From positions 310,001 to 374,000 of the forward strand of contig NZ_SMTK01000002.1 of NCBI RefSeq assembly GCF_004357995.1: a stretch of DNA of 64,000 nt, given 5' to 3'. This document shows positions 15,207 to 30,254 of the stretch, in pieces. The translations under genes and the position numbers were made by a program. Positions within the stretch are counted from its first letter, which is position 1. Every line of letters starts with the position of its first letter. The notes beneath the pieces were generated by a model that had not been told where the DNA came from, did no database searches, and saw only the letters and a program-made list of their open reading frames with translations. The DNA comes from Arthrobacter crusticola (GTDB taxonomy: Bacteria > Actinomycetota > Actinomycetes > Actinomycetales > Micrococcaceae).

Positions 15207-15270
15207 GTGTGATCGAACACACCTTGGTAAGTGGTTTGCATCACAACAGGCTCCTGTGTAGCTTACTTAC
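15207..15270. promoter_or_regulatory. Divergent promoter/operator region of the peptide-uptake operon
   Basis: On the plus strand TTGCAT (15236-15241) and TAGCTT (15259-15264) are 17 bp apart and could drive the importer operon. The 13-mer GTAGCTTACTTAC (15258-15270) overlaps that -10 box and recurs with two changes at 29318-29330. A partial copy GTAAGTGGTTTGC is at 15227-15239. Two further symmetric elements are a 16-bp near-palindrome (15207-15222, 14 of 16 positions symmetric, centred on TCGA) and ACAGGCTCCTGT (15246-15257) inside the spacer. The position suggests repression. Confidence 0.55.
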
Positions 15271-15393
15271 ATCGGCCGCACAGCGTGGTGACGGCCGATA
15301 CTCCAGGCGGGTTCTTCTCTCACCGGAATCGGGTCCGCGGCGCTCTGCCTCGGCCACCCTGACCTGCTGGCAGGCTCAAGCGAAAGAGAAACG

Positions 15394-17265
15394 ATGGCAT
15401 CCAGGTCTCCCATCCCCACCGACGGGCCGCTGCGCCCCTTCCCCCGAGGCGCTGGGCTCCGCCGCACCGCAGGAGCAGGCCTCCTCGCCGCGGCACTCAC
15501 CCTCACGCCCGGCGCACTGGCCCTTCCCGCGGCCACCGCCAGTGAAAAGGCGGAAGACACAACGCTGAAGCTCGCCCTCACCGGCGACATCGACTCCCTC
15601 AACCCCTTCACCGCCATCCTTGCGGCCAGCACCAACATCCTGCTGCTGCAGTATGAAGGCCTCGTCACCTACGGCCCGGAAAACAACGAGATCGTGCCGG
15701 CCCTGGCCGAGTCCTGGGAGACCTCCGAGGACGGCACCACCTGGACCTACACCATCGGCGAGGACCGCAAGTGGTCCGACGGCGAGCCGGTGACCGCCCA
15801 GGATGCCGAGTTCACCTTCAACGCGATCGCCGAGGACGACACCCTCAAGGCGGCCAACGGCACGCTCCTTGAGAACATCGACTCCGTCGAGGCAACCGAC
15901 GACCAGACCCTCGTCATCACGCTGAACGAGGCGCAGGCACCGAACCCCGGTGCCGACCTCGCGATCGTGCCCGAGCACATCTGGTCCAAGGTCGAGGACC
16001 CCTCCACCTTCGAGAACTCCGAGAACGCGGTCGGCAGCGGCCCGTTCACCGTCGAAAGCTACAGCCCGAGCTCGGGCGTGCGCATGAAGGCCAACCCCAA
16101 CTACTGGCGGGGCAAGGCCAAGGTCGACGCCGTCACCTACGTGCCCTACCGCAACAGCGACGCCGCCGTGCAGGCACTGCTCAACGGCGAACTCGACGTC
16201 GTCGGCGACCTCACCCCGGCGCAGTACAAGGCCCTCGAGTCCGAGGAGAACATCACCGTCAACTCCGGCGCAGGACGTCGCTACCAGGCGCTGAACATCA
16301 ACTCGGGCACGATCAACTCCGAGGGCAAGCTCATGGGCGACGGCAACCCCGCCCTGCAGGACATCGAACTGCGCAAGGCGATCGCCCGCGCCATCGACAG
16401 CAAGACCCTGCTGGAGAAGGTCCTCGAAGGCCTCGGCGAACAGGCCACCGGCGAGATCCCCGCCGTGTACCCGCTGTACCACTGGGACACCGACGAGGAA
16501 CTGCCCTACAGCTATGACCCCGAGGAAGCCAACCGGATCCTCGACGAGGCCGGCTACAAGATGGGCCCGGACGGCATCCGTCTGGACAAGGAGGGCAAGC
16601 CGCTGAAGCTCCGCCTCGCCGGCAGCAACAGCAAGCCAACCCACGCCCAGATGGCCGACTATGTGGTGCCGTGGCTCAAGGAGATCGGCATCGAGGCCAC
16701 CACCGAGATCAAGGCCTCCGGCCAGCTTAACGACGACTCGATCCTCGGCAACTACGACATGTACTTCACCGGGTGGGGCATCGGGCCCGACCCCGACTTC
16801 CAGCTCTCCATCAACCAGTGCTCCTCGCGCCCGAACGCCGACGGCACCGGCGCCACCAACGAATCCAATTGGTGCTCCCCGGAGTTCGACGCCCTCTACA
16901 AGGAACAGCACACCGAACTCGACCAGGAACGCCGCAGTGAACTCGTCGTCGAGGCCCAGAAGCTGATTTACGACGCCGCCGTGAACCACGTCCTGTTCTA
17001 CGCCGACTCCCTCGAGGCCTACCGGTCCGACAAGTTCGAACCGTTCACCACCCAGCCCAAGGAGGGCGGGGTCATCCTGGCCCAGAACGGCCCCTGGGGC
17101 GTCTACAGCGCGACGCCGGCCGGTGAGCTCGAAGCGGCCGGGGCAACCAGCGAAGCCAACCCCGAAGCGGTGATCATCCCCGTCGTCGGAGTGCTCGTCG
17201 TCGGTGGACTCGCAGCGTTCTTCCTGGCCAAGCGCCGCCGCGCCACCGCGGACGACCGGCAGTAA
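15394..17265 (+). CDS. Peptide ABC importer substrate-binding protein with C-terminal membrane anchor
   Basis: This 623-residue SBP_bac_5 (DppA/OppA-type) protein has a Sec signal peptide of about 50 residues ending near PAATASEKAED, with no lipobox Cys. The mature domain shows LVTYGPENNEIVPALAESW and NPNYWRGKAKVDAVTYVP. Instead of a lipid anchor, the last 35 residues form a hydrophobic helix (IIPVVGVLVVGGLAAFFLA) followed by KRRR, so the protein is probably tethered by a C-terminal transmembrane segment. It is the first gene of an importer, LD-carboxypeptidase and hydrolase operon, which suggests cell-wall-derived peptides as ligand (inference). Confidence 0.9.
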   Translation: MASRSPIPTDGPLRPFPRGAGLRRTAGAGLLAAALTLTPGALALPAATASEKAEDTTLKLALTGDIDSLNPFTAILAASTNILLLQYEGLVTYGPENNEIVPALAESWETSEDGTTWTYTIGEDRKWSDGEPVTAQDAEFTFNAIAEDDTLKAANGTLLENIDSVEATDDQTLVITLNEAQAPNPGADLAIVPEHIWSKVEDPSTFENSENAVGSGPFTVESYSPSSGVRMKANPNYWRGKAKVDAVTYVPYRNSDAAVQALLNGELDVVGDLTPAQYKALESEENITVNSGAGRRYQALNINSGTINSEGKLMGDGNPALQDIELRKAIARAIDSKTLLEKVLEGLGEQATGEIPAVYPLYHWDTDEELPYSYDPEEANRILDEAGYKMGPDGIRLDKEGKPLKLRLAGSNSKPTHAQMADYVVPWLKEIGIEATTEIKASGQLNDDSILGNYDMYFTGWGIGPDPDFQLSINQCSSRPNADGTGATNESNWCSPEFDALYKEQHTELDQERRSELVVEAQKLIYDAAVNHVLFYADSLEAYRSDKFEPFTTQPKEGGVILAQNGPWGVYSATPAGELEAAGATSEANPEAVIIPVVGVLVVGGLAAFFLAKRRRATADDRQ

Positions 17266-17268
17266 CCG

Positions 17269-18309
17269 ATGTCCAACGCGCTGAGTGCCGCCGACCTCGT
17301 CCCGGGGGAGCCGGCACTGGATGAACCACCCCGGGCGTCGTCATGGCTGCGCTACGCCGCCCTGAAGGCCGGCGGCGCCGTGGTCTCCCTGATCATGGTC
17401 GTGCTGCTCGGGTTCTTCGCCTTCCGCATCCTGCCCGGCGACCCCGTCCGCTCCCTGGCGGAGGGGCGCCGGGTCAGCGCCGAACAGATGGAACTGCTGC
17501 GTGAGCAGCTGGGGTTCAACGACCCGCTGCTCACGCAGTTCCTGCGCTACCTCACCGACCTCGCGCAGGGCCGGCTCGGCTACTCCTACACCTACAGCGA
17601 GCCGGTCCTGAACCTGATCCTTGACCGGCTCGGCCCGACCCTCCTGCTCACCGGCACCGCCGCGCTCATCTCGGTGGTCCTGGGACTGTGGCTGGGGCAG
17701 CGGGCGGCCTGGCGCCGCGGCAGCCTCTTCGACAAGACCCAGACCGGCCTGGCCCTGGTGTTCTGGTCGGTGCCCACCTTCTGGCTCGGTCTGATCCTCC
17801 TGCTGGTCTTCGGCGGCGGCCTCCACTGGTTCCCCACCGGCGGGCTGGTCACGGCCGGCACCACCGCCACCGGGTTCCCGCTGCTCTGGGACGTCGCCCG
17901 GCACATGGTCCTGCCGGTGGTCACCATGGTCGCCGTGGTCTACGCCCAGTACCTGATGGTCATGCGCGCCTCCCTGTTCGAGGAGATGACCTCGGACTAC
18001 CTCCAGACGGCCCGCGCCAAGGGCCTGCGGGAGGACCTGGTGCGCCGCCGCCACGCGGTGCCCAACGCGCTGCTGCCCACCGTGACGCTGATCTTCCTCA
18101 CCCTCGGCGGGCTCGTCGGGGGAGCGGTGACCGTCGAAACGGTGTTCTCCTGGCCGGGCCTCGGGCTGCTGACCTTCCAGGCTCTGTCCGCGCCGGACTT
18201 CCCGCTGCTGCAGGGCACCTTCGTCGTCTTCTCCTCGATTGTGATCGTGATGAACTTCCTCGCCGACCTGCTCTACCGCTTCCTCGACCCCCGGCTGCGT
18301 GCCGCATGA
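17269..18309 (+). CDS. Peptide ABC importer permease (DppB type)
   Basis: This 346-residue membrane protein has about six hydrophobic segments. The DppB features visible are FRILPGDPVRSLAEGRRVS after the first segment, the long periplasmic loop, and the EAA-type loop DYLQTARAKGLREDLVRRRH near residue 243, which contacts the ATPase. It begins 3 nt after the binding-protein stop and overlaps the DppC-type gene (ATGA), indicating tight coupling. Confidence 0.92.
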   Translation: MSNALSAADLVPGEPALDEPPRASSWLRYAALKAGGAVVSLIMVVLLGFFAFRILPGDPVRSLAEGRRVSAEQMELLREQLGFNDPLLTQFLRYLTDLAQGRLGYSYTYSEPVLNLILDRLGPTLLLTGTAALISVVLGLWLGQRAAWRRGSLFDKTQTGLALVFWSVPTFWLGLILLLVFGGGLHWFPTGGLVTAGTTATGFPLLWDVARHMVLPVVTMVAVVYAQYLMVMRASLFEEMTSDYLQTARAKGLREDLVRRRHAVPNALLPTVTLIFLTLGGLVGGAVTVETVFSWPGLGLLTFQALSAPDFPLLQGTFVVFSSIVIVMNFLADLLYRFLDPRLRAA

Positions 18310-19220
18310 GCACGACAACCGGCTCCGCGGGCACCCGCCGCGTCAACGTCGCGGCGGCCCGGCGCCGCCAGGCCCTGGCCGACGGCTGGAAGGAGTTCGC
18401 CCGCAACCGGGCCGGCCTGGCCGGGCTGATCATCCTGCTGGCCGTCATCGCGCTGGCCGCCGTCATCCCGCTGTTCGCCCCGGCCAGCGTCCTCGACGTC
18501 ACCCAGGTGACCGCCGGACGCAACGAACCGCCAAGCCTCGCCAACCCGCTGGGCACCGACCCCGCCGGGCGGTCGGTGCTGGCCCTGCTGATCTGGGGCG
18601 CCCGGATTTCCCTGGTGGTCGGCTTCGCCGCCACCCTGGTCTCCATGGTCATCGGCACGGTGATGGGTATGGCCGCCGGCCACTTCACCGGCGCCACCCA
18701 GGCCGTGCTCATGCGCCTGATCGACTTCTTCCTCGTGGTGCCCGGACTGGTGCTGGCCATCGTGCTCTCAAGCATCATCGGGCCCGGCATCGCCACCATC
18801 GTCGTCGCCATCGGCGTGACCTCCTGGGCCGGCACCGCGCGCCTGGTCCGCTCCCAGACCCTCACCGTCGAGGCCCGCCCCTACATCGAACGGGCCTGGG
18901 CACTGGGCGCTTCGGACGCGCACGTCATCGGCCGGCACGTGCTGCCCGCCGTCATGCCGCTCGTGCTGGCCAACACCACGCTCACCGTCGGCTCTGCCAT
19001 CATCGCCGAATCCACGCTGGCCTTCCTCGGCCTCGGCGACCCCAGCAGCGTCTCCTGGGGCGGCATGCTCAAGTCCGCCCTCGACACCGGTGCCGCCACC
19101 GGCGGCTACTGGTGGTACGTGCTGCCGCCGGGCCTCGCCATCGTTCTCGTGGTGCTGTCCTTCACCCTCGTCGGACGCGCCCTCGAATCCGTCATCAACC
19201 CCACACTGCGAGGACGCTAA
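18306..19220 (+). CDS. Peptide ABC importer permease (DppC type)
   Basis: This 304-residue partner permease starts at ATG 18306, overlapping the previous stop. NPLGTDPAGRSVLALLIWGARISL near residue 80 is the DppC hallmark. The coupling loop is IERAWALGASDAHVIGRHVLP near residue 197. ESTLAFLGLGDPSSVSWGGML follows, as usual before the last membrane segment. Its stop overlaps the start of the fused ATPase (TAATG). Confidence 0.92.
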   Translation: MSTTTGSAGTRRVNVAAARRRQALADGWKEFARNRAGLAGLIILLAVIALAAVIPLFAPASVLDVTQVTAGRNEPPSLANPLGTDPAGRSVLALLIWGARISLVVGFAATLVSMVIGTVMGMAAGHFTGATQAVLMRLIDFFLVVPGLVLAIVLSSIIGPGIATIVVAIGVTSWAGTARLVRSQTLTVEARPYIERAWALGASDAHVIGRHVLPAVMPLVLANTTLTVGSAIIAESTLAFLGLGDPSSVSWGGMLKSALDTGAATGGYWWYVLPPGLAIVLVVLSFTLVGRALESVINPTLRGR

Positions 19221-21058
19221 TGGCCCGCCTGCAACTGAAGGACCTGCGCATCAGCTACCGGACGCAGACCGAGGGCGGCCGCGGCACCGTGGCCGCCGTC
19301 GACGGCGTCAACCTCACCGTCGAGCCCGGCGCCACCGTCGGCATCGCCGGGGAATCCGGCTCCGGCAAGTCGACCCTCGCCGTGTCGGTGCTGCGCCTGC
19401 TGCCCGCCAACGCCACCATCGAGGGCTCGATCCTGCTCGGCGAGGACGACATCTCCACGCTCAGCTGGGGCCGGCTGCGCTCGGTCCGCTGGACCGAGGC
19501 CGCCATCGTCTTCCAGGGCGCCATGCACTCCCTCAACCCGGTGCGGAAGGTCCGCGACCAGATCGCCGAGGCCCTGCAGATCCACGCCACCGGCGACGGC
19601 GCCAAGTATCGAAACGAAGCGGCCCGGACCGCCCGCGTCAACGAACTCCTCGAACAGGTCGGGCTGCCGGTGGCCAAGGGGCTGTCCTACCCGCACGAAC
19701 TCTCGGGCGGTCAGAAGCAGCGCATCATGATGGCCATGGCCCTGGCGTGCGAACCGGAGGTGCTGATCGCCGACGAGCCCACGACGGCGCTCGACGTCGT
19801 GGTGCAGGCCCAGGTCCTCGACCTGCTCACCTCCCTGGTCCGCGACCGCGGCCTGTCGCTGATTCTGATCAGCCATGACCTCTCCGTGCTCGCCGCCACG
19901 TGTGAACGCATCGTGGTGATGCAGGCCGGGCGGATCGTCGAGGACGGCCCGTCCGCGGAGGTGATGCGCAACCCGCAACACGCCCACACCGCGGCCCTGG
20001 CCTCGGCGTTCCCCACCATCGGCGACCCTGCCTCGCGGCTCCGGCTGCCCACCTACACCGCGCCCTACGCTCCGACGGCGCACGACGCCGACCGGCCCGC
20101 CGACGGCATCCGGTCCGGGGGCGTCCCGGCCCGCACGGGATCCGGCCGCCGTTCCGCCGCGCCGAGGACGGATTCCCCGGCGCCGATGGCGGTTTTCCCG
20201 GTGCCCGCGCCGGTTCCCTCAGTGCCGGCGGCCGAAGCGGCGGCAGCGCCGTCTGCCGGGCCGACCCCGGTGCTTGAGGCCCGCAATCTCTCGGTGCGGT
20301 TCGGCCGCAGCGCCACCAGCGCCGTCGACGGGGTGAACCTCACCTGCAACGCCGGGGAGATCGTGGCCCTGGTGGGCCAGTCCGGCTCCGGCAAGACCAC
20401 CCTGGCCCGGACCCTGCTGGGACTTCAGAAGCCGACATCCGGCGAGGTGCTCTTCCGCGGCGAACCGCTGGTGCACCGGCGCAGGGCGCTCAAGGCCTAC
20501 CGCCGCGCGGTCCAGTTCGTGCTGCAGGATCCCACCGCCGCCCTGAACCCGAAGCATTCGGTGTACGAGGCGGTGGCGGAGGGCCCACGCCTTCACCACC
20601 TCGACGGCGACGAACGCGAACTGGTGGCCGCAGCGCTGGCCAAGGCCGAACTGAACCCGCCGCAGAAGTACTTCACCGCCATCCCGCAGGAACTCTCCGG
20701 CGGCCAGCGGCAGCGCGTCGTCATCGCCGGGGCCCTCGCCCTCGACCCGGAGTTCCTCGTCGCCGACGAGCCCGTCGCGAGCCTGGACGCATCGGTGCGC
20801 GCCGGGGTCCTGGCCCTGTTCCTGCGGCTTCGATGCGAGCTCGGCCTCGGCGCCCTGGTGATCACCCACGACCTCGGGCTGGCGTGGAACATCGCCGACC
20901 GGGTGGTGGTGATGTACGAAGGGCGGATCGTCGAGGAAGGGCGCGTCGAGGACGTACTGCTCAACCCGCAGCACGAATACACCCGCAAACTCCTGAGCGT
21001 CGTCCCGACCAGCACGGGCACCCCCGAGCTGTCGGTGCAGCCCGAGGCCGCCCGGTGA
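19220..21058 (+). CDS. Fused peptide ABC importer ATPase (DppD-DppF in one chain)
   Basis: This 612-residue protein carries two complete ABC domains. Domain 1 has GESGSGKST near residue 44, LSGGQKQRIMMAMAL and LIADEPTTALD. Domain 2 starts near residue 350, with GQSGSGKTT, LSGGQRQRVVIAGAL and FLVADEPVASLD. A linker of about 70 Ala/Pro/Arg-rich residues joins them (about 275-350). In many bacteria these are two genes, and the fusion fixes their ratio. Each half has a complete catalytic set, so both should hydrolyse ATP. The stop overlaps the next start as GTGA. Confidence 0.93.
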   Translation: MARLQLKDLRISYRTQTEGGRGTVAAVDGVNLTVEPGATVGIAGESGSGKSTLAVSVLRLLPANATIEGSILLGEDDISTLSWGRLRSVRWTEAAIVFQGAMHSLNPVRKVRDQIAEALQIHATGDGAKYRNEAARTARVNELLEQVGLPVAKGLSYPHELSGGQKQRIMMAMALACEPEVLIADEPTTALDVVVQAQVLDLLTSLVRDRGLSLILISHDLSVLAATCERIVVMQAGRIVEDGPSAEVMRNPQHAHTAALASAFPTIGDPASRLRLPTYTAPYAPTAHDADRPADGIRSGGVPARTGSGRRSAAPRTDSPAPMAVFPVPAPVPSVPAAEAAAAPSAGPTPVLEARNLSVRFGRSATSAVDGVNLTCNAGEIVALVGQSGSGKTTLARTLLGLQKPTSGEVLFRGEPLVHRRRALKAYRRAVQFVLQDPTAALNPKHSVYEAVAEGPRLHHLDGDERELVAAALAKAELNPPQKYFTAIPQELSGGQRQRVVIAGALALDPEFLVADEPVASLDASVRAGVLALFLRLRCELGLGALVITHDLGLAWNIADRVVVMYEGRIVEEGRVEDVLLNPQHEYTRKLLSVVPTSTGTPELSVQPEAAR

Positions 21059-21996
21059 CCGGCGGACCGGCCGCACCGCAGGGGCCGCGTCCCGAACTGC
21101 GTCCGCTGAAGGCGGGGGACCGGGTGGGACTGGTCTCGCCGTCGGGCCCGGCGGACGCCGAAAAGATCGACAGGGCCCTCCGGCTGCTCGAGGGATGGGG
21201 GCTCGAACCGGTGCTCGGTCGGCACGCCCGCGACGTGCACCCGCGTGCGCCTTACCTCGCCGGGTCCGACGCCGACCGCGCCGCCGACCTCCAGGACCTG
21301 GTCTGCGACGACGGCATCGCCGCGGTGATCTGCCTGCGCGGCGGCTACGGCGCCGTCCGGCTCCTGGACCTGCTCGACGCCGGGAAGCTCCGCTCCGCCC
21401 GACCCAAACCGCTGATCGGCTCCTCCGATGTCACCGCCCTTCACGAGTACTGGGCCCAACACCTCGGCCTGGCCACCTGGTTCACTCCGATGCCGGCCAC
21501 GGACGCCGTGCTGGAGGACCCCGCCGCCCGCGACGGGATGCGCGAGGCCCTGTTCACCCCGTACCCGGGCCGGACCCTGACAGGCCCCGCGGCCGAAACC
21601 CTCGTGCCGGGCACCGCGACCGGTATCCTCACCGGCGGCAACCTCAGCCTGCTCGCCATGACCCTGGGCGCGCGCGGCCGGTCCGCACCCTCGAACGAGG
21701 GCCGGATCGGGCTGCTCGAAGACGTCACCGAGGACATCTACAAGCTGGACGGGCTCCTGACCTCCCTCCTGCGCGCGGGATGGTTCGACGGACTGGCCGG
21801 ACTCGCGCTGGGCTCGTGGAGCCAGTGCGGCGAACCGCACGAGGTGAGGGCGCTCGTCGAGGAACTCCTGATGCCCCTCGGCATTCCGCTCGTCGAGGAG
21901 CTCGGCTTCGGGCACGGCCCGGCCGCCCTCAGCGTTCCCCTCGGCGTCTCCGCCACCCTCACCGCCGACGAAAGCCCACGCCTTGTCCTCTCCTGA
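21055..21996 (+). CDS. ldcA: LD-carboxypeptidase (peptidase family S66)
   Basis: This 313-residue enzyme of the murein tetrapeptide carboxypeptidase family removes the terminal D-Ala from L,D-linked tetrapeptides. The nucleophile Ser sits in GSSDVTAL near residue 124, after ICLRGGYGAVRLLD. The catalytic Glu is in LLEDVTEDIYKLDGLL near 223 and the His in GFGHGPAALSVPLG near 284. No signal peptide is present, so it acts on imported or recycled muropeptides in the cytoplasm. GTG 21055 overlaps the ATPase stop. This gene is the strongest clue that the importer handles cell-wall peptides. Confidence 0.92.
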   Translation: MTGGPAAPQGPRPELRPLKAGDRVGLVSPSGPADAEKIDRALRLLEGWGLEPVLGRHARDVHPRAPYLAGSDADRAADLQDLVCDDGIAAVICLRGGYGAVRLLDLLDAGKLRSARPKPLIGSSDVTALHEYWAQHLGLATWFTPMPATDAVLEDPAARDGMREALFTPYPGRTLTGPAAETLVPGTATGILTGGNLSLLAMTLGARGRSAPSNEGRIGLLEDVTEDIYKLDGLLTSLLRAGWFDGLAGLALGSWSQCGEPHEVRALVEELLMPLGIPLVEELGFGHGPAALSVPLGVSATLTADESPRLVLS

Positions 21997-23155
21997 GACC
22001 CCCTTCCCCGCCCAGCCACCCGCCGAAGGCTCCCTCGAGGAGGAGCTCCGATGGATCCTCACCGAGGAGGTCGGCGCCGGTGCGGCGCCGTCGGCGGTTG
22101 CCGCCGTCGACGTCGGTGGCCGGACCACCGGCCCGGTTGCCGTCGGCACCGCCGTCGCATTCGGTGACGGCGGCGCCGACCTCGCACCCGGGGACCGCGT
22201 GCCGGCGCGGCCGGAGACCGTCTACGACCTCGCCTCCGTGACCAAGATCGTCAGCACCGTGGCCGCACTGGCGCTGGTGGCCGACGGGGTGCTCGACCTC
22301 GACGAGCCGGTCGGCCGCCACCTGCCGACCTTCCGGCACGGCGACCGCGCATCGATCACCCTGCGCCACCTGCTCACCCATACCTCCGGGCTGCCCGGCA
22401 CCTGGGAGGGATGGCGCACGCTCCCGGCCGGAACCGACCGGGCCGGCCGGCTCGAGGACCTGCTCTCGATCCCCCTGGCCACCGCGCCGGGCACGGAGTT
22501 CACCTACTCCTGCGTCGGTTTCAACACCGCGATGGCCCTCGCAGAGACCGCCGCCGGGCGGGAATGGGCAGAACTCGTGGAGGAGAAGGTGCTCGCTCCG
22601 CTGCGGCACCTCGATCCCCGGACGGCCGCGCTGACCTACCGGCCCCGGCGCGAAGACTCCGCGGCGACCGAGTACCAGCCGGAGACCGGCAGGGGTGTGG
22701 TGCGGGGAGAGGTGCACGACGAAAGCGCCTGGTTCCTGGGCGGGGCCGTGGCCAACGCGGGCCTCTTCGGGACCGCCGAGGCGGTGCTGGGGCTCGGGAA
22801 CGTGCTCCGCGACCGGCCCGACGCGTTGCTTCCACCGGAGCTGGCCGACGGGTTGTGGAACGACCAGATGCCCCGCATGCTGGGTGCGCAGCGTGCGGCC
22901 GATCCGGAGATCGGCTGGCACGCCCTCGGCCTGCGCATCGGGCAGCCCGACTGGATGGGCACCGCCGGCGCCCAGGCCCGTGGGCACAACGGCTTCACCG
23001 GCACGTCGCTGATCATGGACCGGACCCGCTCGGTGACGGTGGTGCTGCTGACCAACCGCGTGCATCCGCACCGGCTTCACAACGCAATGGGCCCGTTCCG
23101 TGTCCGCGTCGCCGACGCGGCCTACTCCCGGGCCGCCCGGGAGGTGACGGCATGA
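21983..23155 (+). CDS. Serine hydrolase, beta-lactamase/DD-peptidase fold (S12 type)
   Basis: This protein has about 390 residues. Active-site elements are SVTK in LASVTKIVST near residue 77, YSCVGFN near 174 in the YxN position, and GHNGFTGT near 334 in the place of the KTG box. LTHTSGLPG is typical of family S12. There is no signal peptide. The start is probably TTG 21983, 14 nt inside ldcA, because no better codon lies upstream of the domain; this is uncertain. Its place between ldcA and a second beta-lactamase-fold gene argues for peptide or amide hydrolysis in murein turnover, not antibiotic resistance (inference). Confidence 0.83.
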   Translation: MSSPETPFPAQPPAEGSLEEELRWILTEEVGAGAAPSAVAAVDVGGRTTGPVAVGTAVAFGDGGADLAPGDRVPARPETVYDLASVTKIVSTVAALALVADGVLDLDEPVGRHLPTFRHGDRASITLRHLLTHTSGLPGTWEGWRTLPAGTDRAGRLEDLLSIPLATAPGTEFTYSCVGFNTAMALAETAAGREWAELVEEKVLAPLRHLDPRTAALTYRPRREDSAATEYQPETGRGVVRGEVHDESAWFLGGAVANAGLFGTAEAVLGLGNVLRDRPDALLPPELADGLWNDQMPRMLGAQRAADPEIGWHALGLRIGQPDWMGTAGAQARGHNGFTGTSLIMDRTRSVTVVLLTNRVHPHRLHNAMGPFRVRVADAAYSRAAREVTA

Positions 23156-24021
23156 GCATCGTTTCGGACTACAGCGACGGCGTCCCCTCCATCTCCTACT
23201 GTTTGACCACCTTCGAAGGGGAGGTCATTGCCGAAAGCGGTGCCGACACCCCCGTCTACGCGGCGAGTACGATCAAGCTGGCGGTGCTCATCGCCGCCCT
23301 GCGTGCCGTGGACGGGGGAAAGCTGAGGCTCAGCCAGCAGCTGACCTCCCGGCTGACATTCAATTCCTCCGCACCAGGCGGGGGCACCTTCAGCTTCGAG
23401 ACCGATCCCGACGAAACCGACGACGGCATGCCTCCCGAAGGCCGGCCCGTGTCGCTGCGCGAGGTGCTGCGCCGGATGATCGTCGTCTCCTCCAACGAAG
23501 CAACCAATATGGCCGTTGAACTGGTCGGCCTCGACGCCGTCCGCGGGGCACTCGCGGTGTGCGGGGCGGCGTCGTCGAAAATGGAGCGGTTGTTCGGCGA
23601 CCTTGAGGGGCTGGCCGCCGGGCTGACCCAACAGACGACCGCGCGGGACCTGACGGCCATCATGAGTGCCATCGTCACGGGCCGGGCGGCGGGCAGGTCG
23701 AGCACGCGGTTCATGGTCGAGTTGCTGCGGGCACAGGAGTACAGCCTGATCGGGCCGGCGCTTCCCGCGGAGGCGCGGTGGGGGTCGAAGTCCGGGTGGG
23801 TCACCGGAATCCGCCACGATGTCGCCTTCGTGCAGCCCTGCGGCGGGACGGACCCGCTGGGCGGCTTCATCCTCGCCGTCTGCACCCGTGCGTACGGCGA
23901 GGCGGAGGCGACGACAGCGATCGGCGCGTTGTCCCGGCTGGCCTGGGACCTGTCCCGGACGCGTCCCGGAGGTCTCCACTACGTGCTTGAGGGCCCGGCC
24001 GAGGAGTGGGCGACGGGCTGA
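23152..24021 (+). CDS. Serine hydrolase, class A beta-lactamase fold
   Basis: This 289-residue protein belongs to the beta-lactamase2 family. STIK in AASTIKLAVL near residue 44, SSNEATN near 118 (SxN) and KSG in WGSKSGWVTG near 211 are all present. TTARDL resembles the end of the omega loop, but I cannot place a deacylating Glu with confidence. No signal peptide is visible, which is odd for a true beta-lactamase and fits a cytoplasmic hydrolase of imported peptides. The start overlaps the previous stop (ATGA). It is the last gene clearly coupled to the importer operon. Confidence 0.83.
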   Translation: MSIVSDYSDGVPSISYCLTTFEGEVIAESGADTPVYAASTIKLAVLIAALRAVDGGKLRLSQQLTSRLTFNSSAPGGGTFSFETDPDETDDGMPPEGRPVSLREVLRRMIVVSSNEATNMAVELVGLDAVRGALAVCGAASSKMERLFGDLEGLAAGLTQQTTARDLTAIMSAIVTGRAAGRSSTRFMVELLRAQEYSLIGPALPAEARWGSKSGWVTGIRHDVAFVQPCGGTDPLGGFILAVCTRAYGEAEATTAIGALSRLAWDLSRTRPGGLHYVLEGPAEEWATG

Positions 24022-24124
24022 GGCGGATACAAACGCACAACGATCCCGCCGTCGGCTTTGTACGCGCCCCGCCCCGGTGTTTCACTCGGACGGACGATGT
24101 ATCGCGAGTGTCCAGGGGGACCGA

Positions 24125-24412
24125 ATGACCGATGGAAAGATGCACAAGACGGTGCTGCGGTGGGGGATACTCCTCGGCGTTGCCGGTGTCCTGATGTTGG
24201 TTTTCAGCCCAGTGATCATCGGCAATTTCGGGACGTTCTACCCCGCCGCAGGAGCGCCAGTGGCCATGGCCGTGACGACTCTCTATTCGGCGGCATCGAT
24301 CGCGTTCCTGCCCTTTTCCGCTTCCCTCGTGGCGGCATCCCTGGTTATGCGCCATGCGGAATCGCTTGCGGCGCGGAAGGAAGTGCGGCGGGACGAAGCC
24401 GCGACCGGCTAG
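24125..24412 (+). CDS. Small membrane protein of unknown function
   Basis: This 95-residue protein has two hydrophobic segments, WGILLGVAGVLMLVFSPVII near residue 12 and a longer one around 45-75. The N-terminus is short and polar and the C-terminal tail is charged (HAESLAARKEVRRDEAATG). AGGGGG lies upstream of ATG 24125. It follows the hydrolase gene by 103 bp and precedes a strong terminator, so it may be the distal gene of that operon or separate. I do not recognise the family. Confidence 0.6.
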   Translation: MTDGKMHKTVLRWGILLGVAGVLMLVFSPVIIGNFGTFYPAAGAPVAMAVTTLYSAASIAFLPFSASLVAASLVMRHAESLAARKEVRRDEAATG

Positions 24413-24427
24413 CTCCGGAGGCGGCGC

Positions 24428-24471
24428 GGCAAGCACCGGGTGGGGGAGTGTGTGCCCGCCCGGTGCTTGCC
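24428..24471. terminator. Bidirectional terminator hairpin
   Basis: Arms 24428-24444 and 24455-24471 form a 17-bp stem with a single G-U pair and a 10-nt loop. It lies in the 61-bp gap between convergent genes, so it can serve both strands. Confidence 0.85.
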
Positions 24472-24473
24472 GG

Positions 24474-25244
24474 TCAGGTGAAGTTGGCGCCGCCGTCGAC
24501 GAGGATTGACTGTCCGTTGATGTAGACGCCGTCATCGGACATCAGGAATGCGATGACCGACCCGATGTCCTCCGGGGTGCCAAGGCGGGGAGAGCGGACG
24601 GTGTCCAGTACTTCCTGACGCCATTCCTCCGTGGTCGTCGCCAGTGCGGCGCCGGTGAGGACGACGCCGGGGGAGACGACGTTGGTGCGCACCCCGTGCT
24701 TGCCGCCCACGGTCGAGGCGTGCCGGGTGAGGCCGACGAGCCCGCTCTTGGCCGCCTGGTAGGCGGCGCGGACCGGCTCGCCCTGCCAGACCGCGCTGGA
24801 CATGGTGTTCACAATCGATCCGCCGCCGCCTTCCATCATCACGGGCAGGGCATGACGGATGCCGTACATGTACCCGGTGAGGGTGACGTCGATGGTGTGC
24901 TTCCAGACGTCGATCGGAACAGTGGTGACGTCGGAGTCCCGACCTATGTTTCCGGCGGAGAGATCCGCTGCCACGTTGAACAGGCCGTGGAGTCCGCCGT
25001 ATTCGGCGACGGTGAAGTCGATGAGGGCCTTGAAGGAGTCCTCATCCGTGACGTCGAGACGCCGTCCGGATGCGCGGCTGCCGACGGCGGTGATCGCGTC
25101 GGCCACCTCCCGGGCGGCTGCCTCGTTGAGGTCCGCCGCCACAACGATGGCGCCCTCCTCCCCGAGGCGCACTGCCGCGGCGGCGCCGATGTTCCCGGGT
25201 GCCGCTCCGGCGATGATGATCACTTTGTCCCTGAGGCCGCGCAT
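24474..25244 (-). CDS. SDR-family NAD(P)-dependent oxidoreductase
   Basis: This 256-residue short-chain dehydrogenase has a slightly variant cofactor loop, AGAAPGNIG, near residue 12. The catalytic set is Ser in NTMSSAVW near 145 and Tyr/Lys in AAYQAAKSG near 158-162. The C-terminal NGQSILVDGGANFT is typical. The start at 25244 has GGGAG about 10 nt upstream. It lies 73 bp downstream of the luciferase-like monooxygenase on the same strand, and the two may share a transcript. The substrate is unknown. Confidence 0.88.
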   Translation of the reverse strand: MRGLRDKVIIIAGAAPGNIGAAAAVRLGEEGAIVVAADLNEAAAREVADAITAVGSRASGRRLDVTDEDSFKALIDFTVAEYGGLHGLFNVAADLSAGNIGRDSDVTTVPIDVWKHTIDVTLTGYMYGIRHALPVMMEGGGGSIVNTMSSAVWQGEPVRAAYQAAKSGLVGLTRHASTVGGKHGVRTNVVSPGVVLTGAALATTTEEWRQEVLDTVRSPRLGTPEDIGSVIAFLMSDDGVYINGQSILVDGGANFT

Positions 25245-25317
25245 TCTGTTTCTACTCCCGACTGGTTTCTGCACGCTGCTGCGTGTTCTTGCGTTGGATG
25301 GTCCCGAGGCTGGTTTC

Positions 25318-26346
25318 TCAGCGGATTGCCGCTGCGGGCACGGGGGTGGATTCCCGAAGCAGGGGAAGGACGTGTTCGCCGAGCACGTCGAGGTGCTCGT
25401 GCAGGAGCTGTTCGCTCTGCCCGCCGAAGTCGAAGGCGAACAGCTGGCGCTGGTAGTCCCCGAAGGCCTCGCGCTGCAGCTCGATCTTCTCGACGACCTG
25501 GGCGGGGCTGCCGACAATCAATCCCGTGGTGGCGGCTGCGGCTTCGAGACTGTCGCCCTGATTGAGCAGCGAGGCACGGTAGTAGGGCTCCGCCAGCCGG
25601 AACGCGTCCTGGGACTTCGGACGGACGAAGATCCCGCCGCCTGCCCCCACCGTGGCCGAGGCTCCCGGGCCGTGGCCGTGGGCTTCATACCGTTCGCGGT
25701 AGAAGTCGACGTACTGGGCGAAGTAGCTGGTGGGCATGAACAGGTTGTTCACGAAGAAACCATCACCGTACCGGGCTGCCTGCTCGGCGATCTCGGGGCT
25801 GCGGATAGAGCCGTGCCAGACGAACGGCGGGGTGCCGTTCAGTGGTCGGGGAGTAGCGGTGAAGTGGCGCAGCGGCGTCCTGTACTTCCCACTCCAATTC
25901 ACCTCGTCCTCGCGCCAGAGCCGGTGCAGCAGACCGTAATTCTCGACGGCGAGGGGGATGCCCTCCTGCACGTCCTGGCCGAACCACTCGTAGACGGGCA
26001 CGGTGTTGCCGCGACCGAGCATGAGGTCCATCCGACCGTTGGTGAGGTGCTGGAGGGTGGCGTAGTCCTCGGCGATCTTCACCGGATCGTTGGTGGTGAT
26101 GAGCGTGGTCGCCGTGGAGAGTGTGATGGTGCTCGTTTGGCCGGCGATGTAGCCCAAGACCGTTGTCGGCGAGCTGACGGTGAACGGCTTGTTGTGGTGC
26201 TCACCGAGGGCGAAGACGTCGAGGCCGGCCTCTTCGGCGTGCTTTGCGAGCCTGGTGAGTCCCAGAAGACGTTCGTGTTCGTTGGGCTGTTGACCGGAGT
26301 TCGGATCGAACCCAATTTGCCCGACCGTGAATACTCCAAATTCCAT
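25318..26346 (-). CDS. LLM-class flavin-dependent monooxygenase
   Basis: This 342-residue bacterial-luciferase-like enzyme uses reduced FMN or a related flavin. Recognisable blocks are AGLDVFALGEHHN near residue 40, TLQHLTNGRMDLMLGRGN near 96 and FVWHGSIRSPEIAEQAARYGDG near 173. A short-chain NADPH-FMN-reductase homologue lies just upstream on the same strand (stop at 26511), so the two probably act as a two-component monooxygenase in which the reductase supplies reduced flavin (inference). A strong hairpin lies between them. Confidence 0.88.
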   Translation of the reverse strand: MEFGVFTVGQIGFDPNSGQQPNEHERLLGLTRLAKHAEEAGLDVFALGEHHNKPFTVSSPTTVLGYIAGQTSTITLSTATTLITTNDPVKIAEDYATLQHLTNGRMDLMLGRGNTVPVYEWFGQDVQEGIPLAVENYGLLHRLWREDEVNWSGKYRTPLRHFTATPRPLNGTPPFVWHGSIRSPEIAEQAARYGDGFFVNNLFMPTSYFAQYVDFYRERYEAHGHGPGASATVGAGGGIFVRPKSQDAFRLAEPYYRASLLNQGDSLEAAAATTGLIVGSPAQVVEKIELQREAFGDYQRQLFAFDFGGQSEQLLHEHLDVLGEHVLPLLRESTPVPAAAIR

Positions 26347-26366
26347 GAGGCTGTCCTCTGTGCCGG

Positions 26367-26397
26367 GGCCTGCCCACCGCCGTGCGGTGGGCAGGCC
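26367..26397 (-). terminator. 14-bp hairpin upstream of the monooxygenase gene
   Basis: Arms 26367-26380 and 26384-26397 match perfectly around a 3-nt loop. It lies 114 nt past the reductase stop and 20 nt before the monooxygenase ATG, just upstream of its ribosome-binding site. It could terminate the reductase message or act as a stem in the monooxygenase leader. Confidence 0.65.
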
Positions 26398-26510
26398 GTA
26401 CCTGTGCTGGTTGGCGTAGTGGGCCGGACACTACAACTCCAGAGCCCGGCCCGAGGCCATTCCGGGTTGATTCAGGCTCCGCCGGTCATCGGCCGAAACT
26501 GCTGAAGCAC

Positions 26511-27083
26511 TTAGGCGACGGCGACCTCGGCGCGCAGCGGCTCGAGAGCCTTCGACCAGGCTTCGAGCTGGTTGAACATGCTCTCCAGCGCCGCAACCTG
26601 GTGGTCGCCCGGCTTCAGGACCGAGAAGTTTTCGAAGTCGGTGTACAGCGACAGGGCTGCCTGGTCGCGGACCGTTGCCATCTGCAGTTCAGCGGCGACG
26701 AGGCGGAGGTGCTCAACCGCGCGGACGCCACCGGTGGCGCCGTAGCTGACGAACCCGGCGGCCTTGTTGTTCCACTCAGCGGACAGGAAGTCGATGGCGT
26801 TCTTCAGGACACCGGAGGTCGAGTGGTTGTACTCGGGGGTGACAAAGACGTAGCCGTCGAATTCGGCGATCTTCGCGGCCCAGTCCTTGGTGTGGTCCTG
26901 CGAGTACTGGCCCATCAGCGGCGGCATCGGCTCGTCGAAGTGAGGCAGCGGGTAGTCCCGGAGGTCGATGATCTCGTAGCTGGCAGCGTCGCGGGTTGCA
27001 GCCTTCTCGAAGACCCAGTTGGCGACAGCTTCGCCGTTGCGCCCGGGGCGCGTGCTTCCAAGGATGATTGCGATCTTAGTCAT
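26511..27083 (-). CDS. NAD(P)H-dependent FMN reductase (flavodoxin-like fold)
   Basis: This 190-residue protein has the FMN phosphate loop GSTRPGRNGEAV near residue 9 and the flavin-binding stretch TPEYNHSTSGVLKNAID near 77. Both are characteristic of SsuE/YieF-type reductases. The start ATG at 27083 is supported by GGAAGGGA about 5 nt upstream; an in-frame GTG at 27200 would run through the palindromic operator and is rejected. It probably delivers reduced flavin to the adjacent monooxygenase. The palindrome cluster 88-136 nt upstream indicates tight repression. Confidence 0.9.
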   Translation of the reverse strand: MTKIAIILGSTRPGRNGEAVANWVFEKAATRDAASYEIIDLRDYPLPHFDEPMPPLMGQYSQDHTKDWAAKIAEFDGYVFVTPEYNHSTSGVLKNAIDFLSAEWNNKAAGFVSYGATGGVRAVEHLRLVAAELQMATVRDQAALSLYTDFENFSVLKPGDHQVAALESMFNQLEAWSKALEPLRAEVAVA

Positions 27084-27170
27084 AGTGTTCCCTTCCAGGA
27101 CCAGTTGTTCGTGTGCTTGTTCAGCAAGATCTACAACCCGCCCTGAATCGGCAATATTTCCGTTTTCAAC

Positions 27171-27219
27171 ACGCACTTTAAAGTGCGTTGCAATACGCAC
27201 TTTAACGTGCGTTACGCAC
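27171..27219. promoter_or_regulatory. Nested palindromic operators upstream of the FMN reductase
   Basis: ACGCACTTTAAAGTGCGT (27171-27188) is a perfect 18-bp palindrome. A near copy, ACGCACTTTAACGTGCGT, is at 27195-27212, 24 bp further on. GTGCGTTACGCAC (27207-27219) overlaps the second copy and is itself symmetric. The repeated half-site is ACGCAC. A dimeric repressor binding cooperatively is likely. The HxlR gene at 27763 is the nearest candidate, but it lies 544 bp away. Confidence 0.7.
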
Positions 27220-27762
27220 CTGAAAATGAGAATGATTCACATGGGCTGCGTTTAGGCGTCGACGCAAGAGTCTCGGGCGGCCGGGATCGGACGTCCAAGC
27301 CCGGGCCTTCAGGCCCCTTCGGCGACGCCTGCAGGCTGCCGGGCGTACAACGGACCGATCGGCTGGCCGCTGGAAGAATTCCCAACCGCATATCCGGAGC
27401 ATTTGCCCGCTCAAGCGCTTCCGCCTTTCTCGGCTTCGGAACTCCGGAGAGTCCCTAATTGTTCCGGCCGATGTTCGGGAAAACCCCGGCGCGAATTCGT
27501 AATTCGAATTTGCGCCGATGGCACCGTGCCGTTGATTCTCTCTGCCTGAATTCTGGTGGCGTCGGGACTGCAAGGGGGACCCGGCTTGCATACAGGATGG
27601 TCCGGCATAATTGGAGGGCGCGTTCCCGCGGGCGGAGTCCTCATCCCGGGCTGCGGGGCGAGCACCCGCATGCTGCCGTGGCAGGAGGCCCGCTCGGGCC
27701 GCCCGCCTCGGAATCCAGCATGGGGCGAATGAAGGCCAACAGGATCCGGAGAATCGGCAATC
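27220..27762. other. Non-coding stretch between the operator cluster and the HxlR gene
   Basis: I see no supported gene in these 543 bp; the open frames have unlikely composition and no ribosome-binding site. A weak promoter-like pair for the HxlR gene is TTGCAT near 27585 with TAATTG 16 bp later, which would leave a leader of about 150 nt. The sequence is less GC-rich than its surroundings between 27460 and 27560. Confidence 0.3.
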
Positions 27763-28179
27763 ATGAAATTAGCTGCGGTCGAGCAGGCACAGGTCATCTG
27801 CGACAAGGAAGCAGAGACGATCGCCTTCGTGCGGGAGGTCGTCAGTCGATTGGGCGACAAGTGGACAATGGCCGCACTCGATCAGCTCGCCGGCGGGCCG
27901 CTGAGATTCACTGCGCTGCAGGCGGCCCTGCCCCCCATTTCCCACCGGGTGCTGACCGCGACCCTGCGGACCCTCGAGAAAGACGGAATGGTGACCCGCA
28001 CCTCGTATCCGGAGATGCCCCCTCGAGTCGAATACGCGCTGACCCCACTGGGTGCGGGCTTCCTCCGGCAGGCCATGCCGCTCGTGGGGTGGGCCCAGGA
28101 GCATCGGGCGGAAATAGAGGAGAACCGGTCGGCGTCGGCTGCGGTCAGCGCTGCGGCTGTGGCTTCCGCAACCGCGTGA
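27763..28179 (+). CDS. HxlR-family winged-helix regulator
   Basis: This 138-residue protein has the HxlR core: LGDKWTMAALDQLAGGPLRFTALQAAL near residue 31, then ISHRVLTATLRTLEKDGMVTR and PRVEYALTPLGAGF. Members often sense redox or aldehyde/quinone stress and repress a nearby oxidoreductase, which would fit the FMN reductase with its palindromic operators (inference). One Cys (residue 13) lies ahead of the HTH. The C-terminus is Ala-rich and its gene end overlaps the convergent epimerase gene by 35 bp. Confidence 0.87.
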   Translation: MKLAAVEQAQVICDKEAETIAFVREVVSRLGDKWTMAALDQLAGGPLRFTALQAALPPISHRVLTATLRTLEKDGMVTRTSYPEMPPRVEYALTPLGAGFLRQAMPLVGWAQEHRAEIEENRSASAAVSAAAVASATA

Positions 28180-29299
28180 TTCCGGTGCCCGGCGCATCGT
28201 CCAGGATGATGGTGCTGCCCGAGTAGCGGGACCCGCCGTCGACGGGTGGCTCCCGAAGCCACAGGCCGCCGTCGAGGTCCTGCGGAACTTCCGCCCCGGA
28301 CTCACCGGCCAGGGCCGAGGCGAAGGCGGCGGCCGCGCCGATGCCGACGCCGCTTTCCATCATGCAACCCACAAGCACCCCGATGCCGGCGGCCCGCGCC
28401 GTCGAGGCCAGCTCCATTGCTGGGGTAAGCCCGCCGGTCTTGGCGAGCTTGATGTTGACCATTGCCGCCGCGCCGGCGTCGATCAGCCGATGAAGGTCCT
28501 TCACGGTCCAGACGGATTCGTCGGCGAGGATTGGGGTCCGCACGGCGGAGGTGACGCGGGCAAGTCCGTCCCAGTCACCGGCTGGAACCGGCTGCTCCAC
28601 GAGTTCAAGGTCGACTCCGTCATCCTCGATGGCCGTGATGAAGCGGATGGCCTCGTCGGCGGTAAAGGCCTGATTGGCGTCGATGCGCACCCGGGCGTCG
28701 GCGCCCACGGCGTTCCGCACCGCCCGCAGCTTCGCCACCGGATCGCCGTGCGCATCGAGCTTGACCTTCACGCAGTCGAACCCGGCGGCCCGGTGGGAGG
28801 CGGCGGCCCGGGCAAGGGCCGCGGGTCCGTCGACGGAGAGGGTCATGTCGGTGAGGATGCGGTTGTGCCGGCCGCCCAGGTAGCGGTACAGCGGCAGCCC
28901 TGCACGGCGTGCCGCGAGGTCGTGCAGCGCGCAGTCCACGGCCATGCGGGCGGCGCTGCGTTCGTCCGAGCCCGCAATCCGGGAAAGCGCAGCGGAAAGA
29001 TCCCCTGATCCGCCGCCGGACTCCACGAGGGTTTGCAGCGGACCGTGCACCGAGGCGATGACGCCGGCCGTCGTCGCGCCCGTTACCGCACTGATCGGGG
29101 CTTCACCCCAGCCCGAGCGCCCTTCGGCGTCCCGCACCTCGACGAGCACCGATTCGAGGACCGTCGTGCGGCGTACCGCGGTGACGAAGGGCCTCACGAG
29201 GGGGATCGTGACGGCGTGCGCGGTGAGGAGGAGCGCCGGGTTGGAGCCACCTCTGCCCGAGGGGAGGACTGGTACGCCATCCTTCATGTGTCCACCCAT
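28145..29299 (-). CDS. Dipeptide epimerase (enolase superfamily, L-Ala-D/L-Glu type)
   Basis: This 384-residue protein is of the MR/MLE enolase-superfamily type that epimerises L-Ala-D-Glu from murein. Base Lys residues are in CVKVKLDAHGD (KxK motif). Metal ligands appear in DANQAF, LVEQPVPAGD and ADESVWT, and the second catalytic Lys is in MVNIKLAKTGG. I use ATG 29299 because GGGGAGG lies 8 nt upstream; the in-frame ATG at 29326 has no such site. It diverges from a MurR/RpiR regulator and shares a promoter motif with the peptide importer 14 kb away, which links it to murein-peptide recycling (inference). Confidence 0.88.
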   Translation of the reverse strand: MGGHMKDGVPVLPSGRGGSNPALLLTAHAVTIPLVRPFVTAVRRTTVLESVLVEVRDAEGRSGWGEAPISAVTGATTAGVIASVHGPLQTLVESGGGSGDLSAALSRIAGSDERSAARMAVDCALHDLAARRAGLPLYRYLGGRHNRILTDMTLSVDGPAALARAAASHRAAGFDCVKVKLDAHGDPVAKLRAVRNAVGADARVRIDANQAFTADEAIRFITAIEDDGVDLELVEQPVPAGDWDGLARVTSAVRTPILADESVWTVKDLHRLIDAGAAAMVNIKLAKTGGLTPAMELASTARAAGIGVLVGCMMESGVGIGAAAAFASALAGESGAEVPQDLDGGLWLREPPVDGGSRYSGSTIILDDAPGTGITRLRKPQPQR

Positions 29300-29317
29300 C
29301 GCAGCAGCCTCCCCTAT

Positions 29318-29352
29318 GTAGGTCACTTACGATACCTTTTACATGGTTGTAA
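29318..29352. promoter_or_regulatory. Operator and divergent promoter between epimerase and RpiR-type regulator
   Basis: GTAGGTCACTTAC (29318-29330) is an imperfect palindrome, symmetric at 10 of 13 positions. On the minus strand TTACAA (29352-29347) and TAAGTG (29329-29324), 17 bp apart, could form the epimerase promoter, with the palindrome covering its -10. The same 13-mer with two substitutions covers the predicted -10 of the peptide importer at 15258-15270. Confidence 0.6.
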
Positions 29353-29393
29353 CTGACTGACTATTCCCTTCGACCGGCTTCCGAAAGCGGCAG

Positions 29394-30254
29394 ATGAGCA
29401 TCCAATCGGCAATTCAGGCGCAGCTGCCCACGCTTCCTCCTTCCGCGCGGCGGGTGGCTGAGGAAATCCTCGCCGATCCGGAGACGGTGCTGCGCCACAC
29501 CATTTCGGAGCTGGCGCACATCTGCAGTACGTCCGAACCTTCAGTGGTGCGCTTCTGCCGTGCTGTTGGCTACGCGGGCTACGCCCAGTTGCGCCTTTCG
29601 ATGGCCACCGAGATTGGCCGCGAGACCGCGCAGTTCGGGGACACGAAACGGTTCGGTGCCGACATCAGCCCCGACGACTCCCTGGCCGACACTGTCGCCA
29701 AGATCGCCTTCGCGGAAACTTTGGGCATTGAAGAGACCCTTTCCCACCTGGACATCGACCAGCTGCGCAGCGCGGTCGAGAGCATCAGCACTGCGCGCCA
29801 GATCCTGGTCTACGGAGTCGGCGCCGGAGCCGTGGTGGCCGACGACCTCCAGCACAAGCTGTTCCGGATCCGCCGGATGGTCCACTCCTTCGATGACCCC
29901 CACGACGCCCTGATGGGCGCGTCCCTGATGGCCGCCGGCGACGTTGCCGTAGCTTTCTCCCACAGCGGCAGGACCGCGGAGACCCTCGAGTTTGTTGAGC
30001 GGGCGCGGGAGGCAGGGGCAACGACCATCGGGATCACCAACGGCGCAGGGTCACCGCTCGCCGAGGCCACGGACCTGTGCCTGCTCACGATGGTCCGTGA
30101 GACCGCTTTCCGCTCCGGCGCCATGGCGTCGCGGATTGCCCAGCTCGCGGTGGTCGACTGCATTTTCGTGGGCGTGGCGCAGAGCAGCTACGACGCGACG
30201 GTCGAGGCGCTGGAGACAACCCGGGCGGCGATCACGAACCGGAAGCAGCGCTGA
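29394..30254 (+). CDS. MurR/RpiR-family transcriptional regulator
   Basis: This 286-residue protein has an N-terminal RpiR helix-turn-helix (about 1-77; ISELAHICSTSEPSVVRFCRAVGY) and a C-terminal SIS domain. The SIS blocks are ILVYGVGAGAVVADDLQHKLF near residue 139 and VAFSHSGRTAETLEFV near 185. SIS domains bind phosphosugars, for example MurNAc-6-phosphate in MurR. Here no PTS or MurQ gene is nearby, so the ligand is open. It probably controls the divergent epimerase gene and, through the shared motif, the peptide importer (inference). Confidence 0.9.
   Translation: MSIQSAIQAQLPTLPPSARRVAEEILADPETVLRHTISELAHICSTSEPSVVRFCRAVGYAGYAQLRLSMATEIGRETAQFGDTKRFGADISPDDSLADTVAKIAFAETLGIEETLSHLDIDQLRSAVESISTARQILVYGVGAGAVVADDLQHKLFRIRRMVHSFDDPHDALMGASLMAAGDVAVAFSHSGRTAETLEFVERAREAGATTIGITNGAGSPLAEATDLCLLTMVRETAFRSGAMASRIAQLAVVDCIFVGVAQSSYDATVEALETTRAAITNRKQR

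Follow-up and report, generated by a model that had tools for sequence, protein, structure and literature searches.

The 64,000-nucleotide stretch of Arthrobacter crusticola DNA analyzed here (assembly GCF_004357995.1, contig NZ_SMTK01000002.1, positions 310,001 to 374,000; the window, with positions counted from its first letter) carries a run of genes for peptide import and digestion and a gene for an RpiR-family transcriptional regulator. Two divergent intergenic regions of the window, 14 kb apart, each hold a tandem operator, one between an M20-family peptidase gene and an oligopeptide ATP-binding cassette (ABC) importer and the other between an epimerase-like gene and the regulator gene. 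The existence of a regulon marked by such paired operators is strongly supported on computational grounds, and we consider it quite probable that this predicted regulon is controlled by an actinobacterial MurR-type repressor and covers both the peptide and the sugar half of the muropeptide. The features that carry the argument are listed here, the operators with their matrix score and profile E-value (both described below).

15226..15271, no strand: tandem operator 1 (boxes 15226-15240 and 15257-15271; 29.8 bits, profile E 0.0095)
29317..29362, no strand: tandem operator 2 (boxes 29317-29331 and 29348-29362; 28.6 bits, profile E 0.051)
13830..15146, minus strand: M20-family peptidase (family match; divergent from the importer)
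15394..17265, plus strand: substrate-binding protein of the oligopeptide ABC importer (SBP_bac_5; family models)
28145..29299, minus strand: enolase-superfamily dipeptide-epimerase-like enzyme (MR_MLE_C, 7.4e-48)
29394..30254, plus strand: RpiR-family regulator, MurR-like (HTH_6 and SIS)

Paired Operators in Two Divergent Intergenic Regions

An earlier note on this DNA had reported a shared 13-bp motif, and the two copies, GTAGCTTACTTAC at 15258-15270 and GTAGGTCACTTAC at 29318-29330, were found on re-reading the sequence to lie there and to differ at two positions. The RpiR-family gene placed beside the second copy is likewise borne out by its domains, an N-terminal HTH_6 (62.1 bits, cut-off 28.3) and a C-terminal SIS (88.4 bits, cut-off 25). 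The operator is not a single 13-mer, as had been supposed; each 13-mer is half of a larger element of 46 bp in all, which consists of two near-palindromic, TGTAANTNANTTACA-like boxes of 15 bp separated by 16 bp, and the box starts are exactly 31 bp apart in both operators. GTAAGTGGTTTGC at 15227 is paired with GTAGCTTACTTAC in operator 1, and GTAGGTCACTTAC is paired with GTAACTGACTGAC at 29349 in operator 2, the second boxes having been recognized by comparing the intergenic regions of relatives. A gapless alignment of 23 operators taken from other genomes, each in both orientations, has the majority consensus TGTAANTNANTTACA-N16-TGTAANTNANTTACA. Because 31 bp corresponds to about three helical turns, both boxes should face the same side of the DNA.

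Operator 1 lies 79 bp from the M20 peptidase gene and 122 bp from the importer start codon. For operator 2, the distance is 17 bp to the start codon of the epimerase and 31 bp to that of the regulator. If the epimerase began at GTG 29326, as its frame was listed, the gene would run into the motif; the likelier start appears to be ATG 29299, which stands 8 bp behind AGGGGAGG, a predicted Shine-Dalgarno sequence, and leaves the operator 17 bp upstream. The placement of the 13-mer over a -10 box was not confirmed, as a sigma-70 consensus scan, which is weak for high-GC genomes, found no promoter in either operator region; no terminator was found there by scan.

Genome-Wide Significance of the Operators

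A chance resemblance of two AT-rich promoter segments would be suggested by the 13-mer alone, which is weak in the window when three mismatches are allowed (17 matches versus 11.26, standard deviation 3.35, in shuffles; 8 of 100 window shuffles were as high as observed). The motif goes beyond chance because a second box stands 31 bp away in each promoter and because the arrangement is conserved. A matrix made from 26 boxes of relatives (loci L048, L049, L050, and L057 among the training sites) and from no site of the A. crusticola genome found four pairs at 27.3-29.8 bits in that genome, while the best pair at wrong spacings reached 20.3 bits (4.28 million positions). The observed score was reached by 0 of 5000 dinucleotide shuffles of each region, the shuffle maxima being 13.8 bits for operator 1 and 22.3 bits for operator 2. 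Chance thus has a negligible probability, and we judge it to be already refuted by the scans with models that were trained on other genomes.

The two window copies are the sole exact matches to GTAGSTYACTTAC in the 3,666,937-bp genome; allowing one mismatch adds four places, and none of these is reported by the profile scan. A flood of matches outside promoters, which the earlier note had named as an outcome that would speak against its reading, did not appear (two exact matches; four places reported by the profile). Around the four one-mismatch places, tblastn recognized no cluster gene save a homologue of an Opp-type ATPase near one of them (L065).

The profile, a sequence-only model of the 23 operators, each taken in both directions, contains no site of the A. 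crusticola genome, and its candidates come from a first pass that may miss weak sites. It reported exactly four places at E<=10 in the 3.67-Mb genome, namely the two peptide-branch promoters of the window and two sugar-branch promoters. The match at C2:627950 (E 0.59) is located upstream of the gene for a sugar-ABC-type substrate-binding protein, and that at C2:219728 (E 0.70) between the genes for a BadF-type kinase and MurQ, downstream of which AnmK and, further on, an amidohydrolase are encoded. MurQ and AnmK score above curated cut-offs; the kinase is recognized only by the broad BadF family model, so that "MurK-like" is a reading. MurQ is located ~120 kb from the window regulator and is linked to it by the operator only.

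In genome G207, MurQ and AnmK share a 14-kb stretch with the gene for a 74% homologue of the sugar-binding protein, a neighborhood that suggests a link of this protein to N-acetylmuramic acid (MurNAc), although no operator was found there. Further sites were found in other genomes: a profile match before a 98% homologue of the sugar-binding protein in G220, a non-training site before an AnmK homologue (73.6% identical) in G080, and a weaker profile site (E 0.16) lying over the start predicted for a GHL10 glycoside hydrolase in G383. The importer and epimerase operons, which the earlier note had joined in one regulon, keep their place in it, and the predicted membership is extended to the M20 peptidase, the MurK-like kinase, MurQ, AnmK, and the sugar-ABC importer.

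Spacing and Conservation among Relatives

Scoring of 18 intergenic regions gave a mean best pair score of 15.78 at spacing 31, versus 11.06-13.5 at 35 other spacings; spacing 31 was the unique best in 11 of the 18 regions, tied in 4, and not best in 3. These regions were chosen from 26, and because the eight omitted ones had shown no pair by eye (upstream of the importer in L051 and L053, of the epimerase in L049, L050, L055, and L057, and of RpiR in L056 and L058), the means describe the chosen set. The consensus used for this scoring was fixed after the sites were seen, and the 26-box matrix and the 23-operator profile are the fairer tests. Pairs at 31 bp are located at the same M20/importer place in L048, L049, L050, L057, L110, L112, and L113 (the importer promoter of G114, L052, was outside the scan). 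In other genera the pair likewise precedes the genes of the two window promoters, and in other families it accompanies RpiR orthologues with less uniformity, 31 bp being favored over other spacings.

A wider comparison used 26 order-level loci, the best-scoring new ones (30 loci supplied; 82 genomes with a regulator match), whose regulators are 45-60% identical to the window regulator. The best of 28 spacings tried was 31 in 12 of these loci (p 2.6e-11, which presumes independent loci, although sister species among the 26 are not independent), and pairs above 20 bits were at 31 bp in six loci, at 30 bp in one, and at none of the other 26 spacings. Homologues of MurQ, MurK, or AnmK were found in the 1.5-kb flanks at 20 of the 26 RpiR loci. 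A single cluster of G199 (L113) holds all parts: MurK-RpiR-M20, which share a strand, the importer run, and MurQ with the epimerase after it; pairs stand before the importer and before MurQ-epimerase.

Several other arrangements were seen among relatives. Two RpiR paralogues flank the cluster in L049 and L050, and the epimerase-side paralogue has a weaker pair, GAAAATCATTGAC / GTAGATTGGCAAC, likewise at 31 bp. A 24.7-bit pair at L115:9292 (G193) is located just upstream of a minus-strand frame that was read by eye as a major facilitator superfamily (MFS)-like transporter, which lies upstream of AnmK, a second RpiR, and MurQ, all on the same strand. In L053 (G144), a stop interrupts the importer-binding protein and RpiR is broken into two separate frames, which points to an apparent decay of the cluster in this species. 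A second RpiR clade (32-36% identical; 14 loci, L020-L024, L026-L029, and L031-L035) has conserved boxes of the ATAATAGTTTTCA / GAAAYGGATTTTC type ~100 bp upstream of RpiR, with spacing 32 among the best in 12 of the 14 loci, mostly tied with others; tandem operators may be general in the RpiR family.

The Regulator and Its Co-Occurrence with the Operators

The nearest named relatives of the window regulator are those of Arthrobacter sp. MSA 4-2 (99% identity) and Arthrobacter sp. H5 (73%), and its closest PDB sequences are RccR (8ju9, the best match), VvNanR, and the MurR SIS domain. An ETxxRSxxMxxRxAQ stretch is common to the regulator and MurR, but not RccR, in an alignment of PDB sequences; we give it little weight, since we take it to be common in the RpiR family. 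Two HTH_6 proteins were found in the genome, the window regulator and C4:40363, and the gene of the latter stands beside a lysA-like gene in a 3.2-kb locus without an operator pair.

A relative of the regulator is encoded in 6 of 38 genomes of the genus (E<=1e-30), and operator matches (E<=1) were found in all six of these and in 0 of the 32 others (Fisher 3.6e-7). Three of the six (G193, G199, and G207) had contributed training sites. Of the three that had not, namely G000, G216, and G220, the last two encode regulators with 99% identity to the G000 protein. Within the family, 10 of 197 genomes encode the importer protein, and a regulator at least 40% identical occurs in 9 of these 10 versus 4 of the 187 without the importer (p 6.9e-12), or 9 of 10 versus 25 of 187 at the looser E<=1e-40. 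Order-wide, the profile matched (E<=0.3) in 7 of the 82 regulator-encoding genomes, compared with 4 of the 314 others (Fisher 0.002); three of the latter four are partial (25-28 of 46 positions) and come from small genomes of one genus. A match over 42 of the 46 operator positions (E 0.011) was also seen at G462:C3:261136 (L158), in a genome in which no RpiR relative passed the cut-off applied.

These co-occurrences could also follow from that of the whole cluster, in which case a different regulator, encoded elsewhere, would bind the boxes and the RpiR gene would be merely one of its targets. The second HTH_6 protein, C4:40363, is present in the genome, but it adjoins a lysA-like gene and has no pair at its locus, and pairs stand before RpiR orthologues in several families despite differing neighbor genes. 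We regard such a regulator as very improbable. The earlier proposal of one regulon under the RpiR-type protein is upheld as to the paired operators, which stand before both operons and the regulator gene, are conserved, and co-occur perfectly with the regulator in the genus; as to binding and repression it is a prediction.

Genes of the Peptide Branch

The importer operon continues with the following genes.

17269..18309, plus strand: peptide importer permease 1 (family models)
18306..19220, plus strand: peptide importer permease 2 (named from position and homologues in the same order)
19220..21058, plus strand: peptide importer fused double ATPase (named from sequence and homologues)
21055..21996, plus strand: S66 LD-carboxypeptidase, muramoyltetrapeptide-carboxypeptidase-like (PRK11253, 107.8 of 378 bits, below cut-off)
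21983..23155, plus strand: beta-lactamase-fold hydrolase, PBP4B/YfeW-like (PRK03642, 91.1 of 385 bits, below cut-off)
23152..24021, plus strand: class-A-beta-lactamase-like hydrolase (bla_class_A, 41.3 of 200 bits, below cut-off)

The binding protein and permease 1 are recognized by family models, and permease 2 and the ATPase by frame and conserved order only. The GTG start of the LD-carboxypeptidase, itself a predicted start, overlaps the ATPase stop. Judging from this context, the cargo of the importer would be murein peptides. The epimerase beside the RpiR gene belongs to the predicted regulon, as the earlier note had it, but its L-Ala-D/L-Glu substrate is a reading from context: the L-Ala-D/L-Glu epimerase models NF041118 and PRK15129 gave 157.4 of 500 and 135.8 of 343 bits, and DgcA, the best model, gave 199.8 of 400 bits, so that all are below their cut-offs (the query of this family scan carried one extra N-terminal residue).

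Between the importer run and the epimerase, positions 24474-28179 encode a short-chain dehydrogenase/reductase (SDR), a luciferase-like monooxygenase, a flavin mononucleotide (FMN) reductase, and an HxlR-type regulator; the same gap is just ~0.8 kb in L048 and L112, so these genes look like a lineage-specific insertion. Near the cluster, positions 7360-11707 encode a hydroxyisobutyrate-dehydrogenase-like enzyme, a BtpA protein, an FGGY kinase, and an M29-peptidase-like protein, and the matrix scan of the window found no operator pair there.

A Model for Joint Control of the Two Branches

We propose that the regulator encoded at 29394 binds both 46-bp tandem operators, with one SIS-domain tetramer placing its two pairs of DNA-binding domains on two boxes about three helical turns apart. 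The bound tetramer would shut off the two divergent promoter regions, M20|importer and epimerase|regulator. Because operator 2 is only 17 bp away from where the epimerase starts and 31 bp from where the regulator does, binding there should block both genes, so that the regulator would also control its own. In the presence of cell-wall fragments, the MurK-like kinase or AnmK would make a phosphosugar, most likely MurNAc 6-phosphate (MurNAc-6-P), the substrate of MurQ, which would bind the SIS domain and release repression. The same regulator would also open the MurK|MurQ-AnmK promoter and that of the sugar-ABC importer elsewhere in the genome, and the sugar and peptide parts of muropeptides would then be taken up and digested together. 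Repression lifted by MurNAc-6-P is suggested by analogy, because MurR of E. coli acts as a repressor when MurNAc-6-P is absent (PMC5061867) and deletion of B. subtilis murR raises murQ promoter activity (PMC6148471).

The RpiR protein could instead bind the operators as an activator. S. pneumoniae NanR is an RpiR activator whose DNA affinity is effector-independent (PMC12713135), and operator 1, 122 bp upstream of the importer start codon, is compatible with an upstream activator site. Operator 2, however, ends so close to the epimerase start, with the Shine-Dalgarno sequence between them, that it should cover the transcription start or the -10 region, and the MurR proteins of E. coli (PMC5061867) and B. 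subtilis (PMC6148471) repress. Activation therefore seems unlikely, though less so than binding by a different regulator.

A number of observations weigh against a MurR-type repressor acting through a 31-bp double operator. We infer the identity of the binding protein, bridging by a tetramer, repression over activation, and MurNAc-6-P as the effector from sequence comparison and precedent, and the regulator gave 122.9 of the 408 bits of the MurR equivalog NF012026. The profile E-values are modest (0.0095-0.88) and their calibration is rough; a degenerate pair pattern with three mismatches gave 43 hits, fewer than the 82 of its reversed control, with only the top hits enriched. The order-wide enrichment is mild, and five of the seven matching regulator genomes gave training sites. 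Spacing 31 was not the best in 14 of the 26 order-level loci, one of which (L127) has a strong pair at 30 bp instead. The nearest regulator in G199, with its complete cluster, is only 42% identical. No pair was found at the importers of G058, G097, and G144, at the RpiR genes of G058 and G080 (40-42% identical) and of G004, G035, and G118 (38-39% identical), or in the G207 stretch with MurQ, AnmK, and the sugar-ABC homologue (L116).

With these points included, a repressor-controlled regulon of both branches is still the reading that we prefer, and one regulator most likely coordinates the import and digestion of cell-wall fragments, peptide and sugar halves alike. We give about even chances to the fuller proposal, in which a MurNAc-6-P-sensing MurR-type tetramer would be the master switch for whole-muropeptide scavenging in Arthrobacter and its relatives, through double operators in a 31-bp register at four promoters spread over ~400 kb. 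MurR has been described as a local repressor of MurNAc sugar catabolism (PMC5061867); if the proposal is true, a sugar signal gates the uptake and trimming of the peptide part as well, and cell-wall scavenging is one coordinated program in these actinobacteria. Tetramer bridging by RpiR-family proteins could be tested sharply and cheaply through the fixed spacing, and the operator profile offers a means to assign orphan importers to muropeptide use.

Comparison with Known Systems

Genes for an LD-carboxypeptidase, an L-Ala-D/L-Glu epimerase, or a peptide importer that act on murein peptides also occur in B. subtilis ykfABCD/dpp and in the PgrR-controlled ycjG/mpaA of E. coli. Both systems are under other regulator families and are not known to be joined to MurNAc genes. 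The box of our operators resembles what we take to be the HexR consensus. HexR and RccR, the best PDB sequence match, belong to the same RpiR family, but unlike the role predicted for the window regulator, they control central carbon metabolism and sense 2-keto-3-deoxy-6-phosphogluconate (KDPG; HexR, PMC5507952; RccR, PMC12713135). S. pneumoniae NanR is also an RpiR protein, one that forms tetramers and for which a degenerate half-site ~23 bp from the main site has been proposed; unlike the system predicted here, it is an activator connected with sialic acid and has 18-bp sites without an adjacent second full site (PMC12713135).

Among actinobacteria, S. coelicolor SCO4308 is a MurR-like gene in a putative operon with SCO4307 (MurQ), and its description in the accessible part of PMC5061867 includes no operator or peptide genes. 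Arthrobacter globiformis showed only background labeling with a MurNAc probe in a preprint on mycobacterial recycling (PMC13041923); this concerns wall reuse, not catabolism, and is neutral here. A regulon joining the sugar and peptide branches was not found in our literature search, from which subscription papers were largely out of reach, while a MurR-type RpiR regulator with a tandem operator is already known as a kind.

The closest counterpart is the murR|murQ-murP-yfeW divergon of E. coli. RpiR proteins, full-length or as SIS domains, crystallize as tetramers and bind phosphosugars, and for E. coli MurR it has been proposed that a tetramer spans a pair of sites with 17 bp between them, which together cover 47 bp across the -35 and -10 boxes (PMC12713135). 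This trait of two adjacent palindromic sites spanning ~47 bp appears to be matched by the 46-bp pair in its 31-bp register, and both systems have an RpiR-family gene and control of MurQ, as predicted here; the E. coli operon includes the PBP4B gene (PMC5061867), as the window includes a PBP4B-like one. Unlike E. coli MurR, the window regulator is under the MurR equivalog cut-off. Whereas a sugar divergon is described in E. coli, four promoters are predicted here, and their predicted targets include an oligopeptide importer, an M20 peptidase, an LD-carboxypeptidase, and an epimerase.

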